A program made the position numbers and the translations under genes. The notes under the pieces were generated by a model. It ran no database searches, was not told the DNA's origin, and was given only the letters and a program-made list of their open reading frames with translations. Below, piece by piece: positions 474 to 63,048 of a DNA stretch of 64,000 bases (positions are counted from its first letter, which is position 1; every line of letters starts with the position of its first letter). The DNA is from a virus: positions 1-64,000 of IMG/VR virus record IMGVR_UViG_3300009545_000020; one strand, given 5' to 3'.

Positions 474-652
474 TAAAGCTCGCCATCAACCTGCGCACCG
501 ATGATCTCGGCAACATCGCCGTTGACACTGTTGCTCGTTCGCTGGTCGTCGCGGCGCTCCGCATCAGCGAAACGAAGTCGCTCGCTGATCACGTGATCTA
601 CAACGAAGCGGGTGAGAAGGTCGGCAGTTTCGAAGTTGAGTTCGTGAAATGA
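470..652 (+). CDS. Hypothetical 60-residue protein
   Basis: Start chosen at 470 because this ATG overlaps the preceding stop (ATGA), matching the coupling style of the cluster; an upstream in-frame ATG at 425 would bury deep in the previous gene. The protein begins MIKLAINLRTDD and has alternating hydrophobic beta-like stretches. The stop overlaps the next start. Function unknown. Confidence 0.68.
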   Translation: MIKLAINLRTDDLGNIAVDTVARSLVVAALRISETKSLADHVIYNEAGEKVGSFEVEFVK

Positions 653-870
653 CCGAACTCCCCGATGGCGTCGAGCTTCCTGATGACTTCGTGACCTATG
701 CGTGGGTAGGCCAGCGCATGCGCAACGGTATTTGGATGGTCGAGCTGTGCAGCGTTATTAGCCGAATCCCCAACCACAAGATCTACGAGACCGAAAGTGA
801 AGAACGCGCCCGCCAAGTTGCCGCGCTTGTGAGAGAACACCTCGCGGTTACGAAGAAGATGCTCGGATGA
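649..870 (+). CDS. Mini-array protein, ELPD/KKML type (left array, 1)
   Basis: A 73-residue protein starting MTELPDGVELPDD and ending TKKMLG. The ELPD...LP start and the basic-Met-Leu end recur in the next two genes and in the array at 58997-60454, so these are treated as one diverged family. The final codons (AAG AAG ATG CTC GGA TGA) carry AAGAAG 8 nt before the ATG of the next gene, so the protein tail also looks like the downstream ribosome-binding site. Function unknown; small, soluble. Confidence 0.75.
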   Translation: MTELPDGVELPDDFVTYAWVGQRMRNGIWMVELCSVISRIPNHKIYETESEERARQVAALVREHLAVTKKMLG

Positions 871-1082
871 GCGAACTCCCCGACGACATTGAAATTCCAG
901 ACAATTGCCAGTGGGTCTTCGCGATCCACGACCAAGTCAATGACAGGTGGATTATTTATGATCAAACCTACGTCGACATGCAATTGATCCCGTTGGCCGT
1001 TTTCAACGACCAGGCAGAAGCGTATGAGTTCGTGCATTCTGTAAATCAGTTGCTAGAGATCCAAAGGAAAATGCTCTCATGA
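867..1082 (+). CDS. Mini-array protein, ELPD/KKML type (left array, 2)
   Basis: A 71-residue protein with the start MSELPDDIEIPDN and end QRKMLS. Coupled by ATGA on both sides. The middle is aromatic and beta-like (WVFAIHDQ, RWIIYDQ), then an acidic/aliphatic helix precedes the tail. Same layout as its neighbours at 649 and 1079 but only weak identity in the centre, as expected for fast-diverging tandem duplicates. Function unknown. Confidence 0.74.
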   Translation: MSELPDDIEIPDNCQWVFAIHDQVNDRWIIYDQTYVDMQLIPLAVFNDQAEAYEFVHSVNQLLEIQRKMLS

Positions 1083-1294
1083 CTGAGCTACCCGAAGGCG
1101 TCAAACTTCCTACCGATCTCACTAGCTACCGAGGAGTGCACGTGGCCGTGTGGGGAGATACCTTCAGCGTGTACCTAGACCGCGGAGCGTTTGATCGCAC
1201 TCATGTGTTTTTGGCGCAAAACTCGGCGCAAGCATACGAAGTTCGAGACGCCCTGCGGAACCTGTTGGAGATCACGAAGAAGATCCTGAGCTGA
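1079..1294 (+). CDS. Mini-array protein, ELPD/KKML type (left array, 3)
   Basis: A 71-residue protein starting MTELPEGVKLPTD and ending TKKILS. It is the last member of this array: the next gene starts 84 nt later with its own strong ribosome site. Keeping the KKILS tail although nothing is coupled behind it argues either that the tail has a protein role or that a downstream member was lost. Function unknown. Confidence 0.73.
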   Translation: MTELPEGVKLPTDLTSYRGVHVAVWGDTFSVYLDRGAFDRTHVFLAQNSAQAYEVRDALRNLLEITKKILS

Positions 1295-11612: not shown

Positions 11613-13495
11613 TAGAGCCTCCGGTTGATGTCGACGATCGCGAACTCCAGCTGTTCAAGCTCGAAGTCGCAGCCGTCCTTGTTGTAGATCTCGAACGTCA
11701 GGTAGTTCGCCCTGATACCGCGGCCCGTGTCGAAGCGCTGGGTTTCGAGCGACTCCTTGAACCCACGGGCTGTGTAGAGGTACTCGGCCGCCTGCGGGCT
11801 TCCTTCATCGACGATCACTTTCAGCACCATGACGCCCGTCGAAGACATCGCCGCGTAGCACGCCTCGATGCGCTTCTGCTTCAGCGTGCCGAAGTTCTTC
11901 TTGCCGAAGCCCATCGAAGCGCGGATCGGCTGGCCGTTGTCGTCGTCGCCTTCGAGGAGGTACACGCCATCGCTGCGCGCGCCGTAGTAGCTGTCGCCGA
12001 TGCGCGCGAAGCTGTTGAAGTCGTACTGCTCGTACGAGTAGCTCGCGGACGTGTTGAGGTTCATCACCCACGTCTGGTTGTCTTCGTCCGCCAGCGGCAC
12101 GCCGGCCAGCATGTTGATCGCAGACATCATCACCGCCGAGATGTCGGCACTGATCGCGTCGAAGATCGGAGTCACCGCGAGCAGCGAGACGATCGAGGTT
12201 TCCTCGCGCGTGGTGAACGTCATGGCGTCGGTGATGACGCCGCTCTCGTTCATCAGCGCAGCGATGAGTACCGAGCCGATCATCGTTGGAGGAATGTTGA
12301 CGACTTGGATCATCGATCCGGTACCCATCGGATCACTGCGCGCAAATACCATGGGGTACTCCATAGCGAGCTTCGCCTCGCCGTAGGGATGGTCCGCCGC
12401 CAGCATCGCCAAGCGCTTCATTGTCATCGTCGCGCCGCCAGAGCCCACGTACGAGAAACCGACAAAAGTCAGTGGTTCCATGGACATATTCGAACCGCTC
12501 GCGACGAGAAAGTCCGTTGCGTAGCTGTACATCTCCATCGGCGCCATACGCAGTGCGACCCCGCCAACGGGGTAGTTCGACGCCATCATGGTCAGCGGTA
12601 GCATGGTCAGCGGCGACTTGTCCACCGCTCCGCTGACCATGCGCAGGGGGAGCAGGTTCATCGCCACATCCACAACCGCGCGGCCCGCGTTCATGGCCAT
12701 CGGGCGCATAACCAAATCAGCAGCAACGACAGGCCGAAGCACTGGATCGTAGATATAGTCGCCAGCCGTGTACAACGCAGCATCGGCGTAAAGGTAGTTG
12801 TACGGCGGTACGTAGAGTCCCGTGTGTCCGACAAAGATAGTCCGGTCGTTTGGAGTGCCTGCACCAGGATCAAGTGCTTCGTTGTGCGGCGAGGAGTAGT
12901 ACAGCAAGTAATTCAACGTCCCGTCGAGCAGTTCGCTCACAGTCATGAAGATCGTGTCGCCGTGGCGCACAATCGTGAACGTGGCGCCTTCGGCGTACGC
13001 GACCCGTAGATCGTGGTCTACTGATCCATTGTCGCGGCTGCTCACATTGCCGCCATACAAATTGAACCCGATCGATGGGTTCATGCGGTATGGGCTGTAA
13101 AAAGCTAACCCAACAATAGCGCCAGTGAGAGATCGTGGCGCTTTGAAGCTGAATACAAGATCCGTCTGAAGCGACTTGATCGACAACGCACCAGCGTTCC
13201 ATCCGACATTCAGACTTTCAACCGTGGCGGGTACTGTAACCGTACGCGGCGGGATCACGATCGAACCTGATGTCACGACGGCTACTTTTATAGCAGAGGC
13301 AAAGACACTGACCCCGCCGCTGCCGATTGGGTATTCCTTGCCGCCAATGAGTTGCGATACTGCATTCGCAGGCGGCGGCACGGACGGTCCTACCCAGTGG
13401 TACTCTATGAACGTCGTCGGGATCGTGTACCCCGGAATGACAACTTCACGTGTCGTGTTGACCGTGATTGTGTCCTTGATCAGTTTGTTGCTCAT
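11612..13495 (-). CDS. Tail appendage protein with Met-rich repeats
   Basis: A 627-residue protein. N-terminal ~200 residues look beta-rich (FSFKAPRSLTGAIVGLAFYS). Residues ~245-400 contain a run of imperfect ~20-25-residue units, each built around Met-X-(M/P)-(L/M) cores such as MRPMAMNAG, LPLRMVSG, LTMLPLTMMASNYP and MTMKRLAMLAADHP. The C-terminal third resembles virion proteins with a conserved aromatic/Gly pattern (SYYGARSDGVYLLEG). Its ATG overlaps the stop of the upstream sialidase-like gene. Probably a tail or fibre component; function otherwise unknown. Confidence 0.66.
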   Translation of the reverse strand: MSNKLIKDTITVNTTREVVIPGYTIPTTFIEYHWVGPSVPPPANAVSQLIGGKEYPIGSGGVSVFASAIKVAVVTSGSIVIPPRTVTVPATVESLNVGWNAGALSIKSLQTDLVFSFKAPRSLTGAIVGLAFYSPYRMNPSIGFNLYGGNVSSRDNGSVDHDLRVAYAEGATFTIVRHGDTIFMTVSELLDGTLNYLLYYSSPHNEALDPGAGTPNDRTIFVGHTGLYVPPYNYLYADAALYTAGDYIYDPVLRPVVAADLVMRPMAMNAGRAVVDVAMNLLPLRMVSGAVDKSPLTMLPLTMMASNYPVGGVALRMAPMEMYSYATDFLVASGSNMSMEPLTFVGFSYVGSGGATMTMKRLAMLAADHPYGEAKLAMEYPMVFARSDPMGTGSMIQVVNIPPTMIGSVLIAALMNESGVITDAMTFTTREETSIVSLLAVTPIFDAISADISAVMMSAINMLAGVPLADEDNQTWVMNLNTSASYSYEQYDFNSFARIGDSYYGARSDGVYLLEGDDDNGQPIRASMGFGKKNFGTLKQKRIEACYAAMSSTGVMVLKVIVDEGSPQAAEYLYTARGFKESLETQRFDTGRGIRANYLTFEIYNKDGCDFELEQLEFAIVDINRRL

Positions 13496-46157: not shown

Positions 46158-47156
46158 ATGAAACCCAGTCACATCGCCCCCGCTCTCGTCAAACTCATCG
46201 CCAAGCAGCGCCCCACCTTCATCTGGGGGCCGCCCGGCGTCGGCAAGTCCGACGTGGTGCGTCAGACCGCCGATCACCTCGGCATCGAGCTGCGCGACGT
46301 GCGCATGAACCTGCTCGATCCGGTGGACCTGAAGGGCTTCCCGGTGGCCAACCAGAAGACCAAGCAGATGAGCTGGCTCCCGCCCGACTTCCTGCCCAGC
46401 GACCCGGACAGCCAGGGCATCCTGTTCCTCGACGAGATGAACAGCGCCCCGCCGGCGGTACAGGCGAGCGGCTACAGCCTCGTCCTGGACCGCAAGATCG
46501 GCGACTACGAGCTGCCTGCCGGCTGGACGGTCATCGCGGCCGGCAACCGAGCCTCGGACCGCTCCGTGGTCAACGCCATGCCCGCGGCGCTGGCCAACCG
46601 GTTCGTGCACATCAACTTCGAGGTCGATGTCGAGGACTGGTGCGTCTGGGCGCAGGGCGCGAACCTCAACAGCGATCTCCGGGCCTTCATCCGCTTCCGC
46701 AGCAACCTCCTGCACGACATGAAGGTCGCGGCCGGCGGCACGCTCCTGGCCTTCCCCAGCCCCCGCAGCTGGGCCATGGTGAACGACATCTACCAGGACG
46801 GCCACACGCCCGACGTGGAACACGACCTGATCAAGGGCACCGTAGGCGAAGGCGCCAGCGCCGAGTTCCTGGGCTTCGTCCGCCTGATCAAGGATCTGCC
46901 CACCGTCAACGAAGTGCTGCTGAACCCGGAGACCACGCCGATCCCCAAGGAACCGGCAGCACAGTACGCCATTGCGTGCGCGTTGGACTCGAAGATCAGC
47001 AAGGAGAACTTCGGCAAGGTGATGCTGTACCTGTACCGCATGCCGGTCGAGTTCCAGATCATCTGCATCCGCGCTGCCTCGCGTCGCGACAACTCGCTGA
47101 CCAAGACCAAGGCGTTCATCGACTGGGGCCAGAAGAACGCGGCCGTGCTGACCTGA
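46158..47156 (+). CDS. MoxR-type AAA+ ATPase
   Basis: A 332-residue protein: Walker A GPPGVGKS (residues 24-31), Walker B GILFLDEMNSA (~88-98), sensor-like AAGNRASD (~126-133) and Arg-bearing AALANRFVHI (~143-152). This is the MoxR/AAA_5 pattern; such ATPases act with VWA proteins as chaperones that remodel or insert cofactors. A DUF3150-like gene (48364) and a metallopeptidase-VWA gene (50206) complete the usual set. Codons here are markedly more GC-rich than those of the preceding small genes. Confidence 0.86.
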   Translation: MKPSHIAPALVKLIAKQRPTFIWGPPGVGKSDVVRQTADHLGIELRDVRMNLLDPVDLKGFPVANQKTKQMSWLPPDFLPSDPDSQGILFLDEMNSAPPAVQASGYSLVLDRKIGDYELPAGWTVIAAGNRASDRSVVNAMPAALANRFVHINFEVDVEDWCVWAQGANLNSDLRAFIRFRSNLLHDMKVAAGGTLLAFPSPRSWAMVNDIYQDGHTPDVEHDLIKGTVGEGASAEFLGFVRLIKDLPTVNEVLLNPETTPIPKEPAAQYAIACALDSKISKENFGKVMLYLYRMPVEFQIICIRAASRRDNSLTKTKAFIDWGQKNAAVLT

Positions 47157-48363: not shown

Positions 48364-49203
48364 ATGCTCCAAGCTCGCGCCATGCTCGTCGCTCTGTCCA
48401 TTTCCCAATGGACTGCTCGCAAACACGACAGGACGGTTTCCGACGAAGTCGACCACAACCACGGGGCGAAGGACGCCGGGCGATACAACAAGCTCCTGAT
48501 CGACAAGGAACATCTCGAACCACTGGCCAAGTTGTCCGGCGAGATCCGTACCCACCACTACGCCAAAACGCTCCCGTGGGGCGACAACGGCGAGCGCCTG
48601 CTGTCGTCGCAGCTCTTCTTCGATTACACGCGCCAGATGGCGACGTACAAGAATCAGTTCGCCGCGCTAGCCGATACCTTTGTCCAAAACTACCCAGCCA
48701 TGATCCAGACCGCCCGTCAGCGTCTGGGCACGATGTACGAGCCCAGGGACTATCCGCTCAGCTCGGATATCCGCAACCGATTCTCCATCGCCCTGTCCTT
48801 CACGCCGGTCCCGAGCGCCAACGATTTTCGGGTCGACGTGGGCAACGAGGCGCTCGAAGAGATTAAAGCCTCGATCGAGGCCACGAACAGGCAGCGCGAG
48901 CAAGAGGCCATCAAGGACACCTGGCGCCGTGTGCGGGAGGTTATCTCGAAGATCCAAGCCCGCACGGCCGACCCGAAGGCCAAGATCTTCGACACCCTGG
49001 TCGAGAACGCCGCCGAGCTGGTGGCCACGTTGCCGGGCTTGAATATCAACGACGACCCGGAGCTGACGGCGATCCAGAAGGATATCCAGGACCATCTGCT
49101 CGTGCGCCCGACGATCCTGCGAAACAACCCCTTCGCTCGCCAGCGCGTCGCCGACCAGGCGCAATCCATTCTGGACAAATTCTCGTGGGCAACGAGCCAA
49201 TAA
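48364..49203 (+). CDS. DUF3150-like partner of the MoxR/VWA system
   Basis: A 279-residue helical protein starting MLQARAMLVALSISQWTARK with GAKDAGRYNKLLID, TLPWGDNGERLLSS and FTPVPSANDFRVD. These are the marks I associate with DUF3150, regularly found with MoxR ATPase and DUF2201-type metallopeptidase/VWA genes in phages. Probably a substrate or adaptor in that complex. Followed by the second mini-array, which separates it from the VWA gene. Confidence 0.72.
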   Translation: MLQARAMLVALSISQWTARKHDRTVSDEVDHNHGAKDAGRYNKLLIDKEHLEPLAKLSGEIRTHHYAKTLPWGDNGERLLSSQLFFDYTRQMATYKNQFAALADTFVQNYPAMIQTARQRLGTMYEPRDYPLSSDIRNRFSIALSFTPVPSANDFRVDVGNEALEEIKASIEATNRQREQEAIKDTWRRVREVISKIQARTADPKAKIFDTLVENAAELVATLPGLNINDDPELTAIQKDIQDHLLVRPTILRNNPFARQRVADQAQSILDKFSWATSQ

Positions 49204-49409
49204 CCTTCGAGTACGACCTGGTACTCGGCGCACTGAGTGAGCTAATGCTTGAAAACGAGTATTGGTTTAGCAACTACAAGTTATATATCCAATACGACCG
49301 CCCTATGCAGGAATGGTGGTTCCGTCGCGCAAAGCTCCAAGCCGAGAAAGGAGTACCAGCCATGCGAGAACTAGTTGATCGAGTCATCGCACTGAAGATG
49401 CAGTCATGA
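49185..49409 (+). CDS. Middle mini-array protein 1
   Basis: A 74-residue protein starting with GTG inside the end of the DUF3150-like gene (19-nt overlap). Ends MRELVDRVIALKMQS. The end VI-A-x-K-M recurs in the next four proteins. Aromatic-rich centre (EYWFSNYKLYIQYDRPMQEW). Function unknown. Confidence 0.65.
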   Translation: MGNEPITFEYDLVLGALSELMLENEYWFSNYKLYIQYDRPMQEWWFRRAKLQAEKGVPAMRELVDRVIALKMQS

Positions 49410-49624
49410 CTGCCGAGAAAACTCTCAATCTCTGGCTCGATGTATTGCACGGGAGTACATATACGGCACCCACCGCTGATTACGCGTCAACCCAATGGTT
49501 CTGGGGCTTAGTAGTAGGGGCAGGCATATTTGAAAAGATCGAAGAGACCAAGCGCCTTGCAGCTGAAGGCCACCCTATTGCAGCCGAACTAGTCAGCCTC
49601 GTGGTCGCGGAGCGTCTGAAATGA
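49406..49624 (+). CDS. Middle mini-array protein 2
   Basis: A 72-residue protein ending AAELVSLVVAERLK. ATGA coupling on both sides. N-terminal part Trp-containing (LNLWLDVLHGSTY), helical C-terminal third. Function unknown. Confidence 0.68.
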   Translation: MTAEKTLNLWLDVLHGSTYTAPTADYASTQWFWGLVVGAGIFEKIEETKRLAAEGHPIAAELVSLVVAERLK

Positions 49625-49812
49625 ATGAAGTCGACTTCTTCAGGCAAGTGCTTTACCAAGACGGCCTAATAGACGAATTCGATTATCGATGGACAATTGA
49701 TGTTGCCGACTCCTGGGAACTCCGCCGACATGTCATCGTCAATCTCGCGGCCGCAGGCGACGAACGAGCCACTCGAATCCTCAACGCTGTCATCGCAGAG
49801 CGGATGAAATGA
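49621..49812 (+). CDS. Middle mini-array protein 3
   Basis: A 63-residue protein with WTIDVADSWELRRHVIVNLA then AAGDERATRILNAVIAERMK. Shares the AAxGDExAT-x-ILNAVIAERM end almost exactly with the next gene: a recent duplicate. The GAGCGG in the AERM codons stands 5 nt before the next ATG. Confidence 0.72.
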   Translation: MNEVDFFRQVLYQDGLIDEFDYRWTIDVADSWELRRHVIVNLAAAGDERATRILNAVIAERMK

Positions 49813-50000
49813 GCGACGACGCTGAGACTTTCAGGTACACGCTAATCGCTAGCGAAGTTAGTAACTTGCATTACCAATGGGTTCGCACTCTAGGAGAAAC
49901 CTGGGAAGCCCGCCGGCAAGCAATACTGAGTCTTGCAGCCATTGGTGATGAAACAGCAACCTGGATTCTCAACGCTGTCATCGCAGAGCGGATGAGATGA
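49809..50000 (+). CDS. Middle mini-array protein 4
   Basis: A 63-residue sister of the preceding gene: VRTLGETWEARRQAILSLAA then IGDETATWILNAVIAERMR. The identity lies in the C-terminal half, the N terminus is free. ATGA overlaps on both sides. Function unknown. Confidence 0.72.
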   Translation: MSDDAETFRYTLIASEVSNLHYQWVRTLGETWEARRQAILSLAAIGDETATWILNAVIAERMR

Positions 50001-50209
50001 GCATCAGTACAGCCGAACGTGCATTGTGGTGGAAAGTCTGCGAAGTAAGACGTGACGATTGGTTCTTTGCCGTAGACGATAACAAAGCAATGAACTTCGT
50101 CCAACGCATGGACTACCGAATAACCAGAACCAAAGAACTCGCAGCTCAGGGCGATCCAAAAGCAATCGAACTCCTCAACCGCGTCATCGCAGAAAGAATC
50201 CTCACATGA
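49997..50209 (+). CDS. Middle mini-array protein 5
   Basis: A 70-residue protein with KELAAQGDPKAIELLNRVIA then ERILT, keeping the GD-x3-A-x-x-LLN-x-VIAER pattern. Its stop overlaps the start of the metallopeptidase-VWA gene, tying the array to that system at the translational level. Confidence 0.7.
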   Translation: MSISTAERALWWKVCEVRRDDWFFAVDDNKAMNFVQRMDYRITRTKELAAQGDPKAIELLNRVIAERILT

Positions 50210-51330
50210 ACTCTGAAGTCCTCACCAAATTGACCAAGGCGCGTATCGCTCTGATCTTCGAACAACCTTTCTTCGGTCAGCTCGCCTTGCGCTTGGCGCT
50301 GAAGGAGATGAGCCCGGCGCATGAAGCGATGTTCGCCGCTCACGGTATGATCCCAACCCTCGCAGTCGACGGTAAGACGATCTACTACTCGCCGAGCTTC
50401 ATCCAGGGCCTCAGCCACGAACTCACCAAGTCCGCCCTCGCCCACGAGATCGGTCATTGCATCTACGACCACACGGGCCGGCGCGGCGCGCGCGAGCCGA
50501 TGCGCTGGAATTTCGCTGGCGACTACGTCATCAACGACATGCTCAAGGACGCGAACTTCGAGATCGGCAAGGGCTGGCTCCTCGATGCGCAATACAAGGG
50601 CATGTCGAGCGACGAGATCTACAACAGGTTGCCGACGGAAGAAGATGGACAAAGCCAAGGCGGCGGAGGCTTCGATATCGTCATGGACGCCGAGGCCGGC
50701 GAAGCCGAGGTCGAGGCCCTGGAATGGAAGATCGCCGTCAGCCAGGCCGCCCAGACCGCCAAGGCCGCGGGCAAGCTGCCGGCGAGCCTCGAACGCTTCC
50801 TCGAAGAGATGCAGGCGCCGAAGGTCGACTGGCGTGCTCAGCTCCGCCAGTTCGTCACCCAGCTCTCGAAGAACGACTACACCTGGATGCGGCCGAACCG
50901 CCGGTTCCTGAGCGCTGGCTTCTTCATGCCCAGCCTTTTCAGCGAGAACATGGGCACGATCGCCGTGGCAATCGACACCTCGGGCTCGATCGACGCTAAG
51001 ACACTCACCGCATTCGGCGCCGAGATCAAGGCGATCAAGGACAGCGTGAACCCCGAGAAGATCGTCATCATCTACTGCGATGCGCGGGTCAACCACATCG
51101 ACACGTTCGAGCAGTACGACGAGCTGCACTTTGACATGCACGGCGGCGGCGGCACCGACTTCCGCCCGCCGTTCGAGTACCTGAAGGAACACGAGATCAA
51201 CCCGGCGTGCTTCGTGTACCTCACGGACGGCTACGGCCCGTTCGGCGAGTCGACGACGTTCCCGACGCTGTGGTGCATGACGACGGAAGTGAAAGCGCCG
51301 TTCGGCGAGAACATCCGGATCGAGGTGTGA
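50206..51330 (+). CDS. Metallopeptidase-like + VWA protein (DUF2201 type)
   Basis: A 374-residue protein. The N-terminal half has ALAHEIGHCIYDHTGRR near residues 75-91, an HExxH zinc motif with a further His. The C-terminal half is a VWA-like fold with AIDTSGSIDA (~255-264, DxSxS MIDAS), the conserved Thr in GGGGTDFRP (~315) and YLTDGYGPFG (Asp, ~343). This two-domain design is typical of DUF2201 proteins paired with MoxR ATPases. Substrate unknown; it could modify host or phage proteins. Zn-dependent catalysis is inferred from the motif. Confidence 0.82.
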   Translation: MNSEVLTKLTKARIALIFEQPFFGQLALRLALKEMSPAHEAMFAAHGMIPTLAVDGKTIYYSPSFIQGLSHELTKSALAHEIGHCIYDHTGRRGAREPMRWNFAGDYVINDMLKDANFEIGKGWLLDAQYKGMSSDEIYNRLPTEEDGQSQGGGGFDIVMDAEAGEAEVEALEWKIAVSQAAQTAKAAGKLPASLERFLEEMQAPKVDWRAQLRQFVTQLSKNDYTWMRPNRRFLSAGFFMPSLFSENMGTIAVAIDTSGSIDAKTLTAFGAEIKAIKDSVNPEKIVIIYCDARVNHIDTFEQYDELHFDMHGGGGTDFRPPFEYLKEHEINPACFVYLTDGYGPFGESTTFPTLWCMTTEVKAPFGENIRIEV

Positions 51331-55194: not shown

Positions 55195-55340
55195 AGGAAT
55201 TTATTTCGGCTATCGCGATTGCAGCTTGGATATTCGGTCTTGTCCTTGCCAAAGGATTCTGGTCGACGCTCATTGCATTAACTATCTTCCCATGGAGCTG
55301 GTACCTCGTCGCAGAATATTTGATTAAGAGGTTTTCGTGA
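55191..55340 (+). CDS. Small membrane protein, 49 residues
   Basis: Starts MKEFISAIAIAAWIFGLVLA and has two hydrophobic segments (~5-20 and ~25-44). AAGGAAG is 6 nt upstream and the ATG overlaps the helicase stop. The TGA overlaps the GTG of the HNH gene. Function unknown. Confidence 0.65.
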   Translation: MKEFISAIAIAAWIFGLVLAKGFWSTLIALTIFPWSWYLVAEYLIKRFS

Positions 55341-55771
55341 ATCGAAAGTACCGCGACATGGAGGACCGGCTTTTCTCGAACTCCTTCGCGATGGACTGCG
55401 GCTACGAGACTGAGTGCTGGGTGTGGATGGGCGCAAGCGATGGCAAAGGCGCATACCCGCGGATGTCGGTAGGAATCGACAAGACCAGAAAAGTCAAGAA
55501 GGCCAGCGCGCATCGAGTCTCGTACGAAACGTTCATCGGCCCGATCCCCGCCGGCTTCGAACTCGATCACAAATGCCAGGTGACTCGGTGCATTCACCCG
55601 AATCATCTTCAACCACTACCTCCGCCGGATAACCGGCGACTCGTTCAAGCAAGGAAGAAGCATGCGAGTGTTCCTAATCTGCGTCACGATCCTCCTCGCC
55701 ATGCGCATGACGATGGAGTTCGTGCTGATCATGAAGAACTCGAACACGAACACGAGCTGCAGCACAGCTGA
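55337..55771 (+). CDS. HNH endonuclease (HNH_3-like)
   Basis: A 144-residue protein with GTG start. ECWVWMGASDGKGAYPRM, SAHRVSYETFIGPIPAGFEL then DHKCQVTRCIHPNHLQPL carry the HNH motif (D-H ... N-H-L) with paired Cys for zinc binding. Such stand-alone genes are homing-type or DNA-processing nucleases. The last ~36 residues are His-rich and overlap a different-frame membrane gene at 55662, so they may be non-essential. Confidence 0.82.
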   Translation: MNRKYRDMEDRLFSNSFAMDCGYETECWVWMGASDGKGAYPRMSVGIDKTRKVKKASAHRVSYETFIGPIPAGFELDHKCQVTRCIHPNHLQPLPPPDNRRLVQARKKHASVPNLRHDPPRHAHDDGVRADHEELEHEHELQHS

Positions 55772-55784: not shown

Positions 55785-56173
55785 AATATCTGCTCCACAC
55801 CGCTCCATTGCCAATCACGGTAATCTGCTACGCGAAGGTCGTGGCAATGCTCAGTGAACAGCCTTGTACCTACGCGCAGATGGTGGCGGAGATCGGCATG
55901 ACACGCAGCACGATTGCCAAATTCATCGCAGCGTTGCGCAAGGAAGACTACTGCTACATCGCAGCATGGACCGCCAATGACAACGGCCGGCGCAACCTTG
56001 CGATGTTCCAGATGGGCTCCAAGCAAGACGCGAAACAACCGTCCTATACCGACGCCGAGAAGAAAGCGCGCTATCGCCGCCGAAACAAGGAACGGATCAA
56101 GGAGAAGGCGCGCGAGAAGTATCGACAGAGTACCTACAAGCAACTGATGTCGATCGCGGAAGTACGAGCGTGA
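55781..56173 (+). CDS. Winged-helix-like DNA-binding protein
   Basis: A 130-residue protein. Residues ~16-60 (VICYAKVVAMLSEQPCTYAQ then MVAEIGMTRSTIAKFIAALR) form a helix-turn-helix/winged-helix. The C-terminal half is strongly basic and helical (ARYRRRNKERIKEKAREKYR). A likely transcription regulator; a second candidate for binding the TCTAA sites. Its stop overlaps the GTG of the first right-array gene. Confidence 0.7.
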   Translation: MKYLLHTAPLPITVICYAKVVAMLSEQPCTYAQMVAEIGMTRSTIAKFIAALRKEDYCYIAAWTANDNGRRNLAMFQMGSKQDAKQPSYTDAEKKARYRRRNKERIKEKAREKYRQSTYKQLMSIAEVRA

Positions 56174-56451
56174 ACCAGACGGAGATCCGCGAACTGGTGC
56201 GGTCGATCCTGACCGACGCCGGTTGCAAGTTCACGGTCAGGCATGTCGACAGCTATCGGTTCGTCACCATCAGCAATGAGCATCACGAAGTGCTGCGAGG
56301 TGCTTCGCGAGATCTACGAGCCAGGGTGATCTTCGCTGATGAAGCCTACCGAGACACGCTGCCAAAGGTTCACCTTCGCAGTCTCGCGCGGCTACTGAAA
56401 CTGCTCGACATCGCAGTCGCACGCGATGTCCGCAGAAAGATGTTGTCATGA
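56170..56451 (+). CDS. Right mini-array protein 1
   Basis: A 93-residue protein with GTG start. No ELPD-type start. Ends LDIAVARDVRRKMLS, with AGAAAG 8 nt ahead of the next ATG. Helical C-terminal third. Function unknown. Confidence 0.68.
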   Translation: MNQTEIRELVRSILTDAGCKFTVRHVDSYRFVTISNEHHEVLRGASRDLRARVIFADEAYRDTLPKVHLRSLARLLKLLDIAVARDVRRKMLS

Positions 56452-56702
56452 CCGACTACGAGAAGCTCACCGAACTTGAACGGCTGTACTCGCTGGGCAA
56501 AGGCGACTCTATTCCGATTAAGGATAGAACGACCGAATGCTGGATCAGAGACTTGGCCCTCCGATACAAGCACTTCAGACTTCGCTGGTCATACAGAAAC
56601 TACTGCATAGATGTCCACGTCGATCAGTACGGGCTCTGCTGCCTGATCTCCGCGCTGCAGAGAACGATCAACGAGAGAGTTGCGAAGAAGATTCTGTCAT
56701 GA
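56448..56702 (+). CDS. Right mini-array protein 2
   Basis: An 84-residue protein, Tyr/Arg-rich centre (RYKHFRLRWSYRNYCIDVHV), ending TINERVAKKILS. Coupled by ATGA on both sides. Shares only the helix and tail with neighbours. Function unknown. Confidence 0.68.
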   Translation: MTDYEKLTELERLYSLGKGDSIPIKDRTTECWIRDLALRYKHFRLRWSYRNYCIDVHVDQYGLCCLISALQRTINERVAKKILS

Positions 56703-56953
56703 AGCTCAACCTTACGCTGTTGCAGAAGAAGTCAGAGTTAAGTGCGCTGATTTCAACGATCGACAAGCATGTCTACCTGACTGACGTGCAGTGTGAATGG
56801 GTCCGCGCATTGGCGCTTCATCACCATTTGTCTCCGGATGTTGTCTTCTTTGTGCATGGGATAGGACGAGCTTCAACTCATTGCCTCGGCCAACTCCTCG
56901 ATAAAGTCGACAACGAAATCAATGAGCAAGTAGCAAGAAAGATGCTCTCATAA
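56699..56953 (+). CDS. Right mini-array protein 3
   Basis: Start at 56699, overlapping the previous stop. 84 residues ending DNEINEQVARKMLS, with AAGAAAG before the DNA polymerase start (TAATG junction, 1-nt overlap). Same tail as its neighbours although the body differs. Function unknown. Confidence 0.68.
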   Translation: MKLNLTLLQKKSELSALISTIDKHVYLTDVQCEWVRALALHHHLSPDVVFFVHGIGRASTHCLGQLLDKVDNEINEQVARKMLS

Positions 56954-59007
56954 TGGGCTGGTCATCTGCAATCAAGAAGGTTGAGCAAGCTCCCTTCCTC
57001 CGCCCTTCGTTCGAGAAGCATCGAGTCGATTGGGATCGCCTAGTCTCGGTTGACTTCGAGACGTACTTCGACGACGCCTACACGCTCAAGAAGCTGAGCA
57101 CATCGGAGTACGTTCGCGACAAGCAGTTCTCAGCGCACATGGCCTACGTGAAGATCGGCAAGCGCAAGGCGCGGATCATCCCCGCCAAGATGCTCAAGAC
57201 CTATCTGAAGGCTATCGATTGGTCGACGCACTCGCTCCTCGCTCACCACAACCAGTTCGACGGCTTCATCCTGTCGACGCACTTCGGCATCAAGCCGAAG
57301 TTCAACTACTGCACGCTCAGCATGGCGCGCGGGCTGCACAGCAACGAGATCGGCGCTGGCCTCGACGAGGTCTCGCAGTTCTACGGTGGAGGCGGCAAGA
57401 CCGAAGGCGTCATCGAGTTGATGAGAGGCGTGAAGGACCTCACCACCGTCCCCGGCCTCTACGACAAGGCGGCCCACTACTGCATGAACGACGGCGAGGA
57501 GATGTACCGCGTCTTCAAGCTGATGATCGACGACATGCCGGCCGACGAGATCGAGCTGATCCATCGCACGTGCGTGATGTTCAACGAGCCGGTGCTGAAG
57601 CTAGACAGGGAAAGAGCCCTACAGGCACTCGCCCAGGAACTGCAGGACAAAGAGGATCTTCTCTTTTCCATTGCTGGTACACCGGCCCAGGTCAAGCGCC
57701 TCATCGCCGACGCTGAGCCCTCCAAGGCCCTGCTCAAGAAGAACCCGAACGCCACGCCCAAGGATGCCGTGTTCGAGGCGGCCCGCAAGAAGCTCCGCAG
57801 CAGCGAGCAGTTCGCCGATCTCCTGCGCGCTGAGGGCATCGAGCCGCCACGGAAGATCTCACCAGCCTGGAAGAAGCTGCCCAAAGCCGAGCGCACGGAC
57901 GACAAGAAGTATAGCTACGCCTTCGCCCAGACCGACCTGAGCTTCAAACGCCTCCTCGAACACCCCAGGAAGCGCGTGCGCCAGCTCGTGGAGGCTCGAT
58001 TCGCGGTGATGAGCAACACGACAGAGACGCGCGCCGGCCGCATGCTGAAGAGCGGGGAGCGCGGAGCATCCCTGCCGATCTACTACCGCTACGCCGCGGC
58101 GCACACACTGCGCTTCGGCGGCGGCGACAAGCGGAACTACCAGAATCTCGAACGCGGTGGCGAGCTGCGTAAGTCGATCCTCGCGCCGAAGGGCTTCCTC
58201 ATCGCCGTCGGTGACTCGGGCCAAATCGAGGTACGGGTCACCGGGTACATGGCTGGCCAGGACGATCTGCTCGAAGACTTCCGCCTGGCCGACCAGGGCC
58301 TCGATCGCGACGTGTACTGCAAGTTCGGCGATGTGATCTATGGCCGCGAGATCAACAAGGTCGACGAGGACGAACGCTTCGTCAGCAAGGTCGGAGTGCT
58401 TTCGCTCGGGTACGGTGCGGGCCACCATCGGTTTCAATCGACCCTCGCGCTCGGCCAGATGGGGCCGCCGGTGTTCATCGACCTGGAGCTGGCGCAGAAG
58501 GTCGTCAATGCCTACCGCCGCAAGAACTGGAAGATCGTTCAGTGGTGGGGCAAGTGCGAGCAGATCCTCGAAGACATGGCGACCGGCCGCACAGGGACCC
58601 ACAAGTGCATCAGCTGGGAGAAGGAGAAGATCTGGCTCCCGAACGGCATGTGCATGAAGTTCCCGAACCTGCGCTGGAAGAAGAAAGACTCGGATGACGA
58701 GGACTCGCGCGACGGCTGGGTCTACACCCGCAAGGGCAACGACATCAAGATCTACGGCGCAATGCTCTGCGAGAACATCAGCCAGGCCCTCGCCCGGATC
58801 ATCGTCACGACGCAGTTGCTCGACGTTGCCCGCCTCGGCTGGCGAGTCGTGATGACAACGCACGATGAAATCGCCCTCATCGCTCGGATCGCGAAGGCCA
58901 AGAAGGCGTACGACGAACTAATGATGAAGATGAAGATCGCCCCGCACTGGGCGCCGGACATTCCATTGAACTGCGACGGGAAGCTGGAGCCGTACTATGC
59001 AAAGTGA
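56953..59007 (+). CDS. DNA polymerase, family A with 3'-5' exonuclease domain
   Basis: A 684-residue protein. Exonuclease motifs: LVSVDFETYF (D-x-E, ~residue 32), LAHHNQFDGFIL (Asp, ~96) and YCMNDGEEMYRVF (Y-x3-D, ~178). Polymerase motifs: A IAVGDSGQIEVRV (~415), B SKVGVLSLGYGAG (~477) and C MTTHDEIAL (~633). The replicative polymerase of the phage, embedded in the mini-array: three small genes before and eleven after, coupled on both sides. Confidence 0.9.
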   Translation: MGWSSAIKKVEQAPFLRPSFEKHRVDWDRLVSVDFETYFDDAYTLKKLSTSEYVRDKQFSAHMAYVKIGKRKARIIPAKMLKTYLKAIDWSTHSLLAHHNQFDGFILSTHFGIKPKFNYCTLSMARGLHSNEIGAGLDEVSQFYGGGGKTEGVIELMRGVKDLTTVPGLYDKAAHYCMNDGEEMYRVFKLMIDDMPADEIELIHRTCVMFNEPVLKLDRERALQALAQELQDKEDLLFSIAGTPAQVKRLIADAEPSKALLKKNPNATPKDAVFEAARKKLRSSEQFADLLRAEGIEPPRKISPAWKKLPKAERTDDKKYSYAFAQTDLSFKRLLEHPRKRVRQLVEARFAVMSNTTETRAGRMLKSGERGASLPIYYRYAAAHTLRFGGGDKRNYQNLERGGELRKSILAPKGFLIAVGDSGQIEVRVTGYMAGQDDLLEDFRLADQGLDRDVYCKFGDVIYGREINKVDEDERFVSKVGVLSLGYGAGHHRFQSTLALGQMGPPVFIDLELAQKVVNAYRRKNWKIVQWWGKCEQILEDMATGRTGTHKCISWEKEKIWLPNGMCMKFPNLRWKKKDSDDEDSRDGWVYTRKGNDIKIYGAMLCENISQALARIIVTTQLLDVARLGWRVVMTTHDEIALIARIAKAKKAYDELMMKMKIAPHWAPDIPLNCDGKLEPYYAK

Positions 59008-59218
59008 TGAGCTGCCGGATCACCCGGCGAGGAAGTTGCCGGAGTTCCATTCACTGCGAGCGATCCGCTACGGGCACGATGGACCTGCTTTTTCGGTTGG
59101 TGCAAAAGCCGACTGTCCTGATGGGTATAGGGCTCGTTTTGGGAACTGGCTTCCCACTGCCCAGGAAGCGCTCGACGTGTTCCTTGCCGAGCACATCGAG
59201 AAGAAGTTGCTGGCATGA
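58997..59218 (+). CDS. Right mini-array protein 4, ELPDHPAR type
   Basis: A 73-residue protein: MQSDELPDHPARKLPEFHSL at the start, TAQEALDVFLAEHIEKKLLA at the end. Starts within the polymerase end (11-nt overlap). First member of a run of seven genes sharing (E/D)-x-P-(D/N)-HPAR and EALD-x-F. Function unknown. Confidence 0.75.
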   Translation: MQSDELPDHPARKLPEFHSLRAIRYGHDGPAFSVGAKADCPDGYRARFGNWLPTAQEALDVFLAEHIEKKLLA

Positions 59219-59421
59219 AGTACATCAGCAACGAAGTTCCGAATCACCCTGCAAGAAAGCTCCCGCAGTTTCATTGCCTACTTCATCAACCCTGTCTAGC
59301 TGGAAACTTCCGAGTCAGTGTAGTCCGATCAATACCCTTCGAACTGCATTGGCACCATACCGCGACAGAAGCACTGGATGAGTTCTTCGCGGCGTGCCTC
59401 GCTGAGAAGATGCTGCGATGA
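59215..59421 (+). CDS. Right mini-array protein 5, ELPDHPAR type
   Basis: A 68-residue protein: NEVPNHPARKLPQFHCL near the start, TEALDEFFAACLAEKMLR at the end. AGAAG stands 8 nt before the next ATG. Function unknown. Confidence 0.75.
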   Translation: MKYISNEVPNHPARKLPQFHCLLHQPCLAGNFRVSVVRSIPFELHWHHTATEALDEFFAACLAEKMLR

Positions 59422-59621
59422 ACTGTAAAGAACTCCCTGACCACCCTGCGCGGCCACTCATGCGCACTAAGAACGTGTGTCTTCATGTGGACAAGACAGT
59501 CGTAAAGGCACCCTACGAAATCTTCGATTACGTAGGTCAGCGAGTGTTCTATGGAAACACTGCAAAAGAAGTTCTCGATGCGTTCTACAACAGCCACATT
59601 GAAAGAATGATGCTGCGATGA
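59418..59621 (+). CDS. Right mini-array protein 6, ELPDHPAR type
   Basis: A 67-residue protein beginning MNCKELPDHPARPL and ending KEVLDAFYNSHIERMMLR. Central beta-like hydrophobic/basic segments. ATGA overlaps on both sides. Function unknown. Confidence 0.75.
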   Translation: MNCKELPDHPARPLMRTKNVCLHVDKTVVKAPYEIFDYVGQRVFYGNTAKEVLDAFYNSHIERMMLR

Positions 59622-59839
59622 TCTGCAATGAACTTCCTGACCATCCGGCTAGAAAGATACCCGTGTTCAATCGACTAGAACTCAACAATTCTAGTACGAC
59701 ACTAGGCCCCAGATACTGCGTCATTCGGTCTAGCTACACTGATTCCCGAATAGCGACTAGCGAAACCTGGAGTTACACGGCTGAGGAAGCACTCAATTGC
59801 TGCTTTCGAGATTACTTGAGCTGGAAGATGCTGCGATGA
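59618..59839 (+). CDS. Right mini-array protein 7, ELPDHPAR type
   Basis: A 73-residue protein: MICNELPDHPARKIPVFNRL start, TAEEALNCCFRDYLSWKMLR end. GGAAG lies 8 nt before the next ATG. Function unknown. Confidence 0.75.
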   Translation: MICNELPDHPARKIPVFNRLELNNSSTTLGPRYCVIRSSYTDSRIATSETWSYTAEEALNCCFRDYLSWKMLR

Positions 59840-60033
59840 ACTGCAAAGAACTCCCTGACCATCCGGCACGTCGTCTGAAGAACTTCCAAGAGATTGAAAC
59901 AGCAGTGGGGTACGGCGACGGGGTAGATTTTTATCGGGTCTGGGGCCTAGATTCCTACTTCTGTGAGGCTGCAACCGCGCAAGAAGCACTCGATACCTTC
60001 TACAACGAACACATCGCGAAGAAGATGCTGTGA
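59836..60033 (+). CDS. Right mini-array protein 8, ELPDHPAR type
   Basis: Start at 59836 (MNCKELPDHPARRLKNF), overlapping the previous stop. 65 residues ending AQEALDTFYNEHIAKKML; the tail lacks the last residue because the stop is TGA directly after Leu. Function unknown. Confidence 0.75.
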   Translation: MNCKELPDHPARRLKNFQEIETAVGYGDGVDFYRVWGLDSYFCEAATAQEALDTFYNEHIAKKML

Positions 60034-60239
60034 TGAATTGTGATGACCAACACCCCGATCACCCAGCACGGCAACTGCTCGGCTTCGGAGGGGTGTACAA
60101 ATCCACCGCTCCAGGAACTCAAGACGAGCCGTTCTATATCTGGTCGACAAGATCGAATGGGGTGTTCTGGGGTGCGACACCAAAGGAAGCACTCGACGAG
60201 TTCTACAACGATTACATAGCGCAGAAGATGTTGGCATGA
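60033..60239 (+). CDS. Right mini-array protein 9, HPDHPAR type
   Basis: ATG at 60033 (TGATG junction) or GTG at 60030. 68 residues: MNCDDQHPDHPARQLLGF start, PKEALDEFYNDYIAQKMLA end. A clear duplicate of the preceding members. Function unknown. Confidence 0.74.
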   Translation: MNCDDQHPDHPARQLLGFGGVYKSTAPGTQDEPFYIWSTRSNGVFWGATPKEALDEFYNDYIAQKMLA

Positions 60240-60454
60240 AGCGCGATGACTTACCCAATCACCCTGCGAGGATGGCCAACACTTTCGGTTCCCTCGTCTA
60301 CCTCCCATTGACGAACCCAGAAGCACCGCGTTTCTTCATTTCGTTCGTTACTGACCCCAGTAGATACATCTCATCCGGCTTTTGGTCCTACACCGCCGAG
60401 GAAGCACTCGATGCCTTCTACCAAGACTACCTCGAACGAAAACTCCTCGGATGA
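60236..60454 (+). CDS. Right mini-array protein 10, LPNHPAR type
   Basis: A 72-residue protein: MKRDDLPNHPARMANTFGSL start, TAEEALDAFYQDYLERKLLG end. The tail codons lack a good AAGAAG here (CGAAAACTCC), and the next gene start is disturbed, see 60411-60635. Function unknown. Confidence 0.74.
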   Translation: MKRDDLPNHPARMANTFGSLVYLPLTNPEAPRFFISFVTDPSRYISSGFWSYTAEEALDAFYQDYLERKLLG

Positions 60455-60635
60455 GATCGTCGGAATTCATCCGGTGATCGAGCATCCTCAGTTCAGGTCG
60501 TTGATCAACATGGACGGGCATTTCCATGTGAGATTGAAGACCGGGGTCAATGACAAGTTCTACAGTCTCACCGCCAAAGGCGCGCTCGATCTCGCATGGA
60601 ACGAACTCATTGCAAGGAAGATGATCGATGACTGA
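60411..60635 (+). CDS. Right mini-array protein 11, start disrupted or shifted
   Basis: Body matches the family: HPVIEHPQFRSLINMDG, then TAKGALDLAWNELIARKMID. But the expected coupled ATG at 60451 opens only 8 codons (MRSSEFIR) and its TGA overlaps an in-frame GTG at 60474. The ATG at 60411 lies 44 nt inside the previous gene. Either translation restarts at GTG 60474, or a single-base indel has shifted the start. Function unknown. Confidence 0.55.
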   Translation: MPSTKTTSNENSSDEIVGIHPVIEHPQFRSLINMDGHFHVRLKTGVNDKFYSLTAKGALDLAWNELIARKMIDD

Positions 60636-60825
60636 TACCGAGATTCTCGACTACCTCGACAAAGAAGCTATCTCAGGTCGCAATCCGCGCGACGTGATCA
60701 TCGGCGATGTTCAATTTGTTGTCGGTATCAATCGCAAGACGACATTTCGAGAAGCGGTAATCGGCGGAATCGCCAAGGCCAACGAACTAAAGGTCGATCG
60801 AGTCAGAAAGAAGATACTGTCATGA
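60628..60825 (+). CDS. Right mini-array protein 12
   Basis: A 65-residue protein beginning MTDTEILDYLDKEAIS and ending VDRVRKKILS. It lacks HPAR but keeps the tail and AAAGAAG 8 nt before the next start. Overlaps the previous gene by 8 nt. Function unknown. Confidence 0.68.
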   Translation: MTDTEILDYLDKEAISGRNPRDVIIGDVQFVVGINRKTTFREAVIGGIAKANELKVDRVRKKILS

Positions 60826-61037
60826 ACAAGGTCGAAAAAGAAGTACGTGCACACCCGTACTTCCAGTCGATCAAGAAACCAGATTCGACTGGATGCGTCT
60901 TCGTCGTGTATTGGAGAGATCCGTCTGACCTCGACCACAACAAAAAGCCGACGTTGAAAGCAGCTTGGAGTTACGACCGCAGTGCTGCTTTCGAAGAGGC
61001 TCAGCAGCAGATCCTGACTGCAATGGTGATGAGATGA
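60822..61037 (+). CDS. Right mini-array protein 13, AHPYF type
   Basis: A 71-residue protein: KEVRAHPYFQSIKKPDSTG, then beta-like CVFVVYWRDP and AAFEEAQQQILTAMVMR. The AHP-(Y/W)-F start is shared with the next gene and matches the HPQF of the previous one. Function unknown. Confidence 0.72.
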   Translation: MNKVEKEVRAHPYFQSIKKPDSTGCVFVVYWRDPSDLDHNKKPTLKAAWSYDRSAAFEEAQQQILTAMVMR

Positions 61038-61219
61038 GTGATGCCGAGAAGGCAGTCCGGGCGCATCCGTGGTTCAGGCGACTTGGAGAGAGCGATGGTC
61101 GGTACTTCGTGCTCTACAAAGACGCTGACTCTTTCCCGGCGATCGTGTGGCACGCAGACAAAGACATAGCGTTTCAGATGGCTCTCGAAAACATCCTCAG
61201 ACATCAACTCCGCCTATGA
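61034..61219 (+). CDS. Right mini-array protein 14, AHPWF type
   Basis: Start at 61034, overlapping the previous stop. 61 residues: MSDAEKAVRAHPWFRRLGES, then RYFVLYKDADSFPAIVWHAD and the end ENILRHQLRL. Last member; its tail has lost the KKML form. Overlaps the HNH gene start by ATGA. Function unknown. Confidence 0.72.
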   Translation: MSDAEKAVRAHPWFRRLGESDGRYFVLYKDADSFPAIVWHADKDIAFQMALENILRHQLRL

Positions 61220-61695
61220 CTCTTGCCCTTCATCCCCGAGTCCTGCCGACGTTCACCTCGTGGATCGTCTCACGCGGTGCTCAAGTCCTGGCTACGACGA
61301 ACGAGTACGAGATGCTGCGGTTCAAGACCGACACGGGAACTGGCGTCGTGTACCGCAATAAGCACTTTCGTCTAAAGCTCGTCGGCGAAGCTCCCGTCGC
61401 CTTCGAAGCGTTCCGCAAGGGCCTGCCCTGGCGTGCGACGCCGGCTGTGCCCCGCGTACGACGCTCGGCAGACGAACAAACCTTGCGCCTACGCGACGGC
61501 GATCTGTGCTTCTTCTGCCAGAAGGATCTCGGTGACGACGCCACGGTCGAGCACCTGGTTGCTCGAACCCACAGCGGACCGAATCACATCAGCAACAAGG
61601 TTCTGGCGCACAAGATCTGCAACGCCGACGTGGGCCACATGAGCGCGATGGAAAAGATCCGCATCCATACCCAGGCCCTATTGTCTAAGCTCTAA
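61216..61695 (+). CDS. HNH endonuclease-like protein
   Basis: Start at 61216 because it overlaps the previous stop. 159 residues with CFFCQKDLGDDATVEHLVAR and SNKVLAHKICNADVGHM, i.e. CxxC, E-H-L, a second H and C-N: a zinc-bound HNH fold. Homing-type or DNA repair/packaging nuclease. Its last codons form part of the following TCTAA element (TCTAAGCTCTAA). Confidence 0.78.
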   Translation: MTLALHPRVLPTFTSWIVSRGAQVLATTNEYEMLRFKTDTGTGVVYRNKHFRLKLVGEAPVAFEAFRKGLPWRATPAVPRVRRSADEQTLRLRDGDLCFFCQKDLGDDATVEHLVARTHSGPNHISNKVLAHKICNADVGHMSAMEKIRIHTQALLSKL

Positions 61696-62244: not shown

Positions 62245-63048
62245 ATGGCAACTGCCAGCAAGCCCGCCGCCAAGAAGGCAGCACCCTCCCCCGCCGCCAA
62301 GAAGACCAGCACCGCGGTCGCAGTCAAGAAGCCGGGCGGCGCCGTCGTCGACATCGCCGCGATGCGCGAGGCCCTGCGTCAGCAGGCCGCCGGCATGGGC
62401 GACCGCACCCAACCGGGCAGCGGCCTGAAGATCAGCACGAAGGGCAAGCGGTTCACGCTACCCGACGGCACGAAGACCACCGACCCGCTCAGCCTGGTCA
62501 TCCTCGACTTCATCGCGATCAACAAGTTCTACCAGGGCAAGTACGACGCGGAGAACCCGGAAGCGCCCGCGTGCTTCGCGATCAGCGTCAACCCGAAGAA
62601 CATGATCCCGAGCGCGAACTCGCCCGTTCGTCAGTCGGACGCCTGCAACGGGTGCCCGCTGAACGAGTTCAAGTCGGCCGACAACGGCAAGGGCAAGGCG
62701 TGCAAGAACGGCCGGATGCTGGCCGTGCTGTCGCCCGATGCCGACGAGGACGACGACATCTGGTTGATCGAGGTCAGCCCGACCGGTCTGAAGGGCTTCG
62801 ACAACTACGTCGCCGGCCTGGCCCGCATGGGTATGACGCCCATGGAGATGATCACCACGGTGTCTCTCGACGAGGCGCAGGACTACCCGGTGCTGCAGTT
62901 CAGCAACCCGGTGCCCAACGAGAACCTGGCGGTGCACTTCGCGCGTCAGGAAGAAGCCAAGAAGCTGCTGGCGACCGAGCCCGATGTGTCGAGTTTCAAG
63001 AAGGCCGAGCCGCCGCCGGCCAAGAAGCAGGCCAACGCGCGCCGCTGA
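62245..63048 (+). CDS. Putative single-strand DNA-binding-type phage protein
   Basis: A 267-residue protein with an Ala/Lys/Pro N terminus (MATASKPAAKKAAPSPAAKK) and again a basic end (PPPAKKQANARR), typical of disordered nucleic-acid-binding tails. The core has ACFAISVNPKNMIPS and the Cys set QSDACNGCPLNEF plus GKACKNGRM, a likely zinc site. Phage proteins of this layout stand near replication genes. DNA binding is inference; no family was named. Confidence 0.62.
   Translation: MATASKPAAKKAAPSPAAKKTSTAVAVKKPGGAVVDIAAMREALRQQAAGMGDRTQPGSGLKISTKGKRFTLPDGTKTTDPLSLVILDFIAINKFYQGKYDAENPEAPACFAISVNPKNMIPSANSPVRQSDACNGCPLNEFKSADNGKGKACKNGRMLAVLSPDADEDDDIWLIEVSPTGLKGFDNYVAGLARMGMTPMEMITTVSLDEAQDYPVLQFSNPVPNENLAVHFARQEEAKKLLATEPDVSSFKKAEPPPAKKQANARR

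Follow-up and report, generated by a model that had tools for sequence, protein, structure and literature searches.

What are the fourteen very small genes that crowd around the DNA polymerase gene of a metagenomic phage, and what do they have in common? Counter-defence proteins are often encoded in clusters of tiny early phage genes that evolve fast, and such mini-genes are hard to recognise because their sequences share nothing. A sequence-only reading of this locus had proposed that all fourteen are members of one repeatedly duplicated family within the replication operon. Here we follow up that proposal within the phage and in its relatives.

Results

The window, by which we mean the whole stretch of DNA that was analysed, comprises bases 1-64000 of a metagenomic IMG/VR virus record of 71,443 bp. 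Its DNA polymerase gene (56953..59007, + strand) forms a fixed marker between two slots, and the nearest named match of the encoded protein is the DNA polymerase of Pseudomonas phage KPP25, at 37.8% identity. Polymerases that are about 50% identical occur in a clade of uncultivated phages, as well as in contigs assigned to Herminiimonas, Janthinobacterium, Polaromonas and Rhodoferax. Among the related polymerase loci is one on the Herminiimonas sp. CN contig L272. The phage, a virus of soil and water bacteria, belongs to a Burkholderiales-associated clade and is probably temperate, since a tyrosine-integrase-like ORF, read by eye, is located near the right end of the record (L029:10009-11037, about 70,009-71,037 of the record).

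The array around the polymerase

All fourteen small ORFs described earlier, three before and eleven after the polymerase, are present on the + strand with overlaps nearly all as described, and their placement inside a replication operon is borne out by the helicase, polymerase, gp157-like synteny. Upstream of the polymerase, g1 (56170..56451), g2 (56448..56702) and g3 (56699..56953) are joined by 4-nt ATGA overlaps, and g3 overlaps the polymerase gene by 1 nt (TAATG). On the other side, g4 (58997..59218, 73 aa) overlaps the polymerase gene by 11 nt, and is followed by g5 (59215..59421, 68 aa), g6 (59418..59621, 67 aa), g7 (59618..59839, 73 aa), g8 (59836..60033, 65 aa), g9 (60033..60239, 68 aa) and g10 (60236..60454, 72 aa), with overlaps of 4 nt each from g4 to g8, 1 nt (TGATG) between g8 and g9, and 4 nt between g9 and g10. 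The array ends with g11 (60411..60635), g12 (60628..60825, 65 aa), g13 (60822..61037) and g14 (61034..61219); here g11 and g12 overlap by 8 nt, and g12, g13, g14 and the HNH gene that follows by 4 nt each. The g10/g11 junction is the exception, as its ATGA is out of frame with g11, the first usual start of which (60411) lies 44 nt inside g10. This ATGA opens a short dead frame. With its in-frame coupled start lost, g11 may therefore be poorly translated.

Two unrelated HNH genes flank the polymerase and both of its mini-gene arrays. One is coupled to the end of the array (61216..61695, + strand; PHROG 7785, E 1.5e-18), while the other, an HNH_3 endonuclease gene (55337..55771, + strand; PF13392, E 2.1e-9), is found on the opposite side of the region. 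Possibly, they are elements of the homing type through which the slots stay variable.

The HPAR family and its limits

The end motifs that had suggested a single family were readily recovered. The [ED]xP[DN]HPAR start reported for seven genes is that of g4-g10, with one extra residue in g9; the EALD-x-F(Y) segment, reported for eight or more, is present with variants in g4-g11; a K-x-M-L-type tail occurs in g1-g12, g14 being without it; and the HP[QYW]F motif of three later genes is that of g11, g13 and g14. Profile similarity across all fourteen proteins draws a narrower boundary. In leave-one-out profile searches g4 (E 3.6e-19), g5 (2.2e-15), g6 (2.2e-17), g7 (8.4e-19), g8 (3.7e-20), g9 (4.9e-18) and g10 (4.5e-19) were all recovered, as was g11, a divergent member (HPVIEHPQF), at 3.4e-7, or 1.2e-5 in a search of the whole record. 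In contrast, g1, g2, g3 and g12 each scored below 2 bits against the HPAR profile, showing no family membership. As such, the claim of one expanded paralogous family holds for g4-g11 and probably for g13 and g14, and is not supported for g1-g3 and g12. The first three resemble each other at the C-terminus only, that segment being all that g1 and g2 have in common with g3, and g12 belongs to a separate MTDTEIL family present in several relatives, with a homolog in the related locus L039 (E 2.5e-6).

While g13 and g14 are clearly related to each other (hhalign E 7e-9), the link between their HPxF profile and that of HPAR is suggestive: the profile-profile E value is 0.0024 over an alignment of only 21 columns, and none of 150 column shuffles scored as well. 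Both are probably distant members of the family. Our own reading of the alignment is that the HP motifs may match one another, as H-P-A-R-x-L-P-x-F in the HPAR proteins, H-P-V-I-E-H-P-Q-F in g11, H-P-V-R-A-Q-P-Q-F in a homolog from another phage (L162, see below) and V-R-A-H-P-W-F in g14. The idea that HPAR is the N-terminal domain of the adjacent HNH protein was rejected (hhalign E 0.6-0.8). For the mini-genes scanned, PHROGs, Pfam and PADLOC returned only matches to unrelated or unnamed families, all of them with E 0.027 or worse and under the cut-off where one exists. What remains is a tandemly expanded family of 8-10 copies that makes up the largest array and fills a hypervariable slot directly downstream of the DNA polymerase.

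Selection and predicted folds

Among the seven HPAR paralogs, nonsynonymous divergence is low relative to synonymous divergence in the N-terminal block (pN 0.16, pS 0.92) and in the C-terminal 21 columns (pN 0.31, pS 0.64), showing that selection acts on both ends of the HPAR proteins. The core, with pN 0.66 and pS 0.74, has diverged as far as unrelated sequence, and because synonymous sites are near saturation, positive selection and relaxed constraint cannot be separated there.

AlphaFold2 predicts three strands and a C-terminal helix (beta-beta-beta-alpha, pLDDT 78) for eight HPAR members, g4 included, and a helix-strand-strand-long helix arrangement (alpha-beta-beta-alpha, pLDDT 84) for g12 together with eight relatives. 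One fold common to all fourteen proteins, the check that had been proposed, is thus unsupported by these models, which cover the HPAR family and g12. Foldseek returned nothing significant. An AP2-like or HicB-like DNA-binding fold was considered and set aside, as it found neither a Pfam match nor a convincing Foldseek match (best E 0.46 in PDB and 0.087 in BFVD).

Further arrays in the same record

The phage holds four operonic arrays of start-stop-coupled mini-genes, with at least 22 mini-genes between them, most of which come from families not found elsewhere, and only two of these arrays flank the polymerase. The other two, at 649-1294 and 49185-50209, are new and lie beyond the region described earlier. 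The left array consists of three genes on the + strand, at 649..870 (MTELPDG..., tail VTKKMLG), 867..1082 (tail IQRKMLS) and 1079..1294 (tail ITKKILS). This ELP family resembles HPAR in its N-terminal ELPD, and the bodies align over 4 columns only. The middle array comprises five genes, also on the + strand, at 49185..49409 (tail VIALKMQS), 49406..49624 (VVAERLK), 49621..49812 (VIAERMK), 49809..50000 (VIAERMR) and 49997..50209 (VIAERILT). It is situated in the early region between a DUF3150-like gene and a VWA-metallopeptidase gene (DUF2201, 50206-51330), to which its last member is coupled; a gene for a MoxR-like AAA+ ATPase (46158-47156; PF07726, PF07728) lies in the same early region.

All four arrays have a GC content of 0.51-0.53, against 0.60-0.65 in the surrounding genes measured, and are 3.4-fold richer in rare codons (9.1% versus 2.7%). 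When the whole record was scanned for small ORFs that terminate in [VIL][AT]x[KREQ][LMI], 13 of 479 ORFs matched, eleven of them inside the arrays, the remaining two being a minus-strand ORF and a 128-aa ORF beyond the window. The latter (L029:7923-8309, record 67,923-68,309) has a hydrophobic, membrane-like stretch and ends in VANKLLS, resembling the mini-gene tails.

A hypervariable slot in related phages

Anchored on the helicase, the polymerase and the gene at 62245-63048, the collection of related loci comprised 263 before the last scan, 147 of them in the close clade. Between these fixed flanks, both the helicase-polymerase and the polymerase-gp157-like slots are hypervariable. Where the window carries 11 mini-genes and an HNH gene after the polymerase, Burkholderiales relatives have 0-7 mini-genes, mostly unrelated: seven in L039, five in L163, three in L049 and three in L038, two of which have HPFF or HPAF starts. 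Several relatives with polymerases about 50% identical (L131, L135, L275) have none after the polymerase. A single HPAR homolog was found in L162 (E 0.005 plus synteny), and it came to light only when the syntenic slot itself was read. Copy number thus varies between related phages, as had been anticipated, with eight or more copies here, one HPAR homolog in L162, the HPFF/HPAF forms in L038 and none in most.

Back-translated patterns retrieved no HPAR relatives from viral and genome contigs, and no convincing relatives were found in named phages (best E 10). The family is essentially limited to this metagenomic record and one homolog. In another phage, the same slot carries an independent expansion of three look-alike mini-genes (L163:14096-14816; tail VAERLE/VAGRLDG). 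Furthermore, L037 retains after its polymerase, at about 12928-12993, an apparent end of a lost mini-gene (RKAALHIVTQRITQ) that matches an intact mini-gene in L038, which is evidence of gain and loss within the slot.

A C-terminal tail shared by unrelated mini-genes

A further new result concerns the ends of these proteins. Unrelated mini-gene families share a C-terminal helix ending in [VI][AT]x[KR][LMI]. This ending is conserved at the protein level, and its copies within one phage resemble each other more than they do those of other phages. Coupled mini-genes of the clade carry the tail in 47 of 324 cases, as opposed to 3 of 152 in other phage clades whose mini-genes are coupled in the same way (Fisher p 8e-6), a comparison in which the pattern was defined post hoc, from the window and the first relatives, and the ORF lists include spurious frames. 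Many slot mini-genes of the relatives are without it, and two small held-out sets, with few new members, did not confirm it, at 1/12 (several of them doubtful ORFs) and 0/9, against 0/57 in other clades. In L062, CxxC-containing and hydrophobic mini-genes (L062:3081-3839 and L062:15367-16036) carry similar tails (IKARLLR, LARLTK, VKARLLS).

A test that requires no pattern, and from which the window was left out, points in the same direction. The last 8 residues of non-homologous mini-genes were closer within than between phages (z 3.2; 3 of 2000 label permutations as high), while the three preceding 8-residue segments gave no clear signal (z 0.7-1.7). The last segment reached z 1.6 (112/2000) in other clades, where the next one inward gave z 2.3. 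The within-phage effect is modest in size.

In pattern-bearing tails from non-homologous mini-genes of the same phage, synonymous sites have diverged (pS 0.60 in the window, 0.71 in the others) as much as in the bodies (0.63-0.69). Nonsynonymous divergence is lower in the tails (pN 0.36 in the window, 0.20 in the others) than in the bodies (0.67-0.68), a difference to which selection by a regular expression contributes by construction. Since that selection biases pN downward and leaves pS and the within/between difference unaffected, the protein-level argument rests mainly on the saturated pS and on the tail pN being 0.33 within phages versus 0.40 between them.

Is the tail a protein feature, or a ribosome site in disguise? 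It could be a repeated translation-initiation element, of which the ATGA overlaps merely fix the reading frame. The tail is placed where the Shine-Dalgarno sequence of the next gene must be, its Arg codon is AGG or AGA in 38 of 48 coupled tails and 2 of 6 uncoupled ones, compared to 7% of the Arg codons in the phage's large genes, and within the clade it is commoner at coupled ends (47/324) than at uncoupled ends (11/361). Repeated start-linked sequences in one phage cluster provide a precedent (PMC3203893). Set beside a DNA element of that kind, the tails do have a ribosome-binding core beside the start in these AGG/AGA codons, though at most window junctions the anti-Shine-Dalgarno pairing is weak (-0.9 to -3 kcal/mol); nucleotide-level conservation is not seen, as their pS is about that of unrelated body codons. 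Moreover, 8 of 25 tail-bearing mini-genes are without a coupled downstream gene, and the coupled mini-genes of other clades manage without the tail. On balance we regard an initiation element as possible yet rather unlikely, and the same four observations (saturated synonymous sites, uncoupled tails, weak pairing, tail-less coupled mini-genes elsewhere) counter the tail being a Shine-Dalgarno artefact only. Apparently, the tail is an amino-acid motif in which the ribosome site of the next gene is nested within the Arg codon. Because pairing in the window is weak, re-initiation at the overlapping stop-start likely does most of the translation work there.

Discussion

So what could these mini-genes be doing? 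Neither the family libraries nor the fold searches gave a match. The explanation we favour, tentatively and at somewhat less than even confidence, is that the arrays and their shared tail constitute an early, diversifying host-interaction set with a nested ribosome site. The mini-genes would be translated as early proteins by re-initiation along one mRNA. Their conserved ends would act as an invariant scaffold or docking tag and the variable core as the working surface, which gene duplication and rapid evolution would have diversified as host targets changed, be it in host takeover or counter-defence. The Arg and Lys codons of the tag would, in addition, provide the next gene with its ribosome-binding site. 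We infer the host-facing part from the tandem expansion, the fast core, the presence/absence within an HNH-bordered hypervariable slot and the unusual composition; a host-defence or host-interaction role, as had been suggested earlier, would fit the variability of the slot, the rapid divergence of the core and the low GC.

Alternatively, the arrays may be largely neutral, consisting of tandem duplicates that were kept by accident and are drifting. Core pN close to pS, a copy number that varies freely and the remnant in L037 would all fit such drift. However, both ends of the HPAR proteins are strongly constrained (pN/pS 0.16/0.92 and 0.31/0.64), and the ORFs are open and coupled in all copies except g11, which makes neutrality improbable.

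It is equally a long shot that each phage of the clade has its own C-terminal tag, common to many of its unrelated mini-genes and read by a common partner that handles, activates or degrades interchangeable clients. Such a partner might be a phage chaperone or protease, for example the MoxR-type AAA+ ATPase and the VWA-metallopeptidase whose genes flank the middle array, or else a host factor, and new mini-genes could then be recruited by merely acquiring the tag, written into the gene junction. The MoxR/VWA pair is a candidate reader by position only, and since the VWA gene also has relatives beyond the clade, at loci where the coupled mini-genes showed no tail, a tight link between the pair and the tag is argued against.

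Two further readings are very unlikely. With two of four arrays flanking the polymerase inside the replication operon, the mini-genes might serve the phage replisome as regulators or accessory subunits, but the other two arrays are located elsewhere, and several relatives have no mini-genes beside the polymerase. Descent of all mini-genes from one ancient gene, with bodies diverged past recognition and only the C-terminal helix kept, would account for the HPAR/HPxF link and the g2-g3 and g1-g3 C-terminal matches, yet the predicted folds differ and tails are also found on proteins that look unrelated by eye, such as the CxxC-containing mini-gene of L062 and a hydrophobic, membrane-like one.

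Returning to the favoured host-interaction set, a tag common to one phage's unrelated mini-genes would, if true, offer a means to list such genes and raise the question of what reads it. Furthermore, the HPAR array offers 8-10 naturally occurring versions of a single small scaffold whose core is hypervariable, which makes it convenient for specificity tests. Finally, the nested ribosome site suggests two codes, a protein tail and a start signal, on the same bases.

Comparison with known systems

Our literature search found no report of unrelated small phage proteins that have a C-terminal tail in common, although such a case may exist elsewhere. The closest published analogue that we found is the SAS element of cluster K mycobacteriophages, where a conserved 13-bp DNA sequence (SAS/ESAS) precedes the starts of genes of different families (PMC3203893). 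In both cases a short sequence that overlaps the ribosome-binding site is tied to the starts of many genes of different families within one phage cluster. However, SAS is conserved as DNA, whereas the mini-gene tail has saturated synonymous sites and conserved amino acids, and its ending varies from phage to phage.

KPP25 (Kochitakasuvirus), with the nearest named polymerase, has a similar helicase-polymerase-gp157-like gene order, but only unrelated small genes follow its polymerase, and no HPAR homologs were found anywhere in it. The MoxR-like ATPase and VWA-metallopeptidase of the window, for their part, are similar to a chaperone pair described in jumbo phages, MoxR-vWA with a fused metallopeptidase (PMC7824862).

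Lastly, the arrays resemble the small early host-takeover and anti-defence clusters of phages and archaeal viruses (anti-CRISPR type, for which PMC11065993 describes discovery based on regulatory sequences) in being small, fast-evolving, operonic and variably present between relatives, and in carrying a shared feature that may help find members. There the shared feature is a promoter, while that of the mini-genes is a protein C-terminus. They also differ in that our searches found no homology between the mini-genes and any known inhibitor, and in that one family has been tandemly expanded to 8-10 copies.
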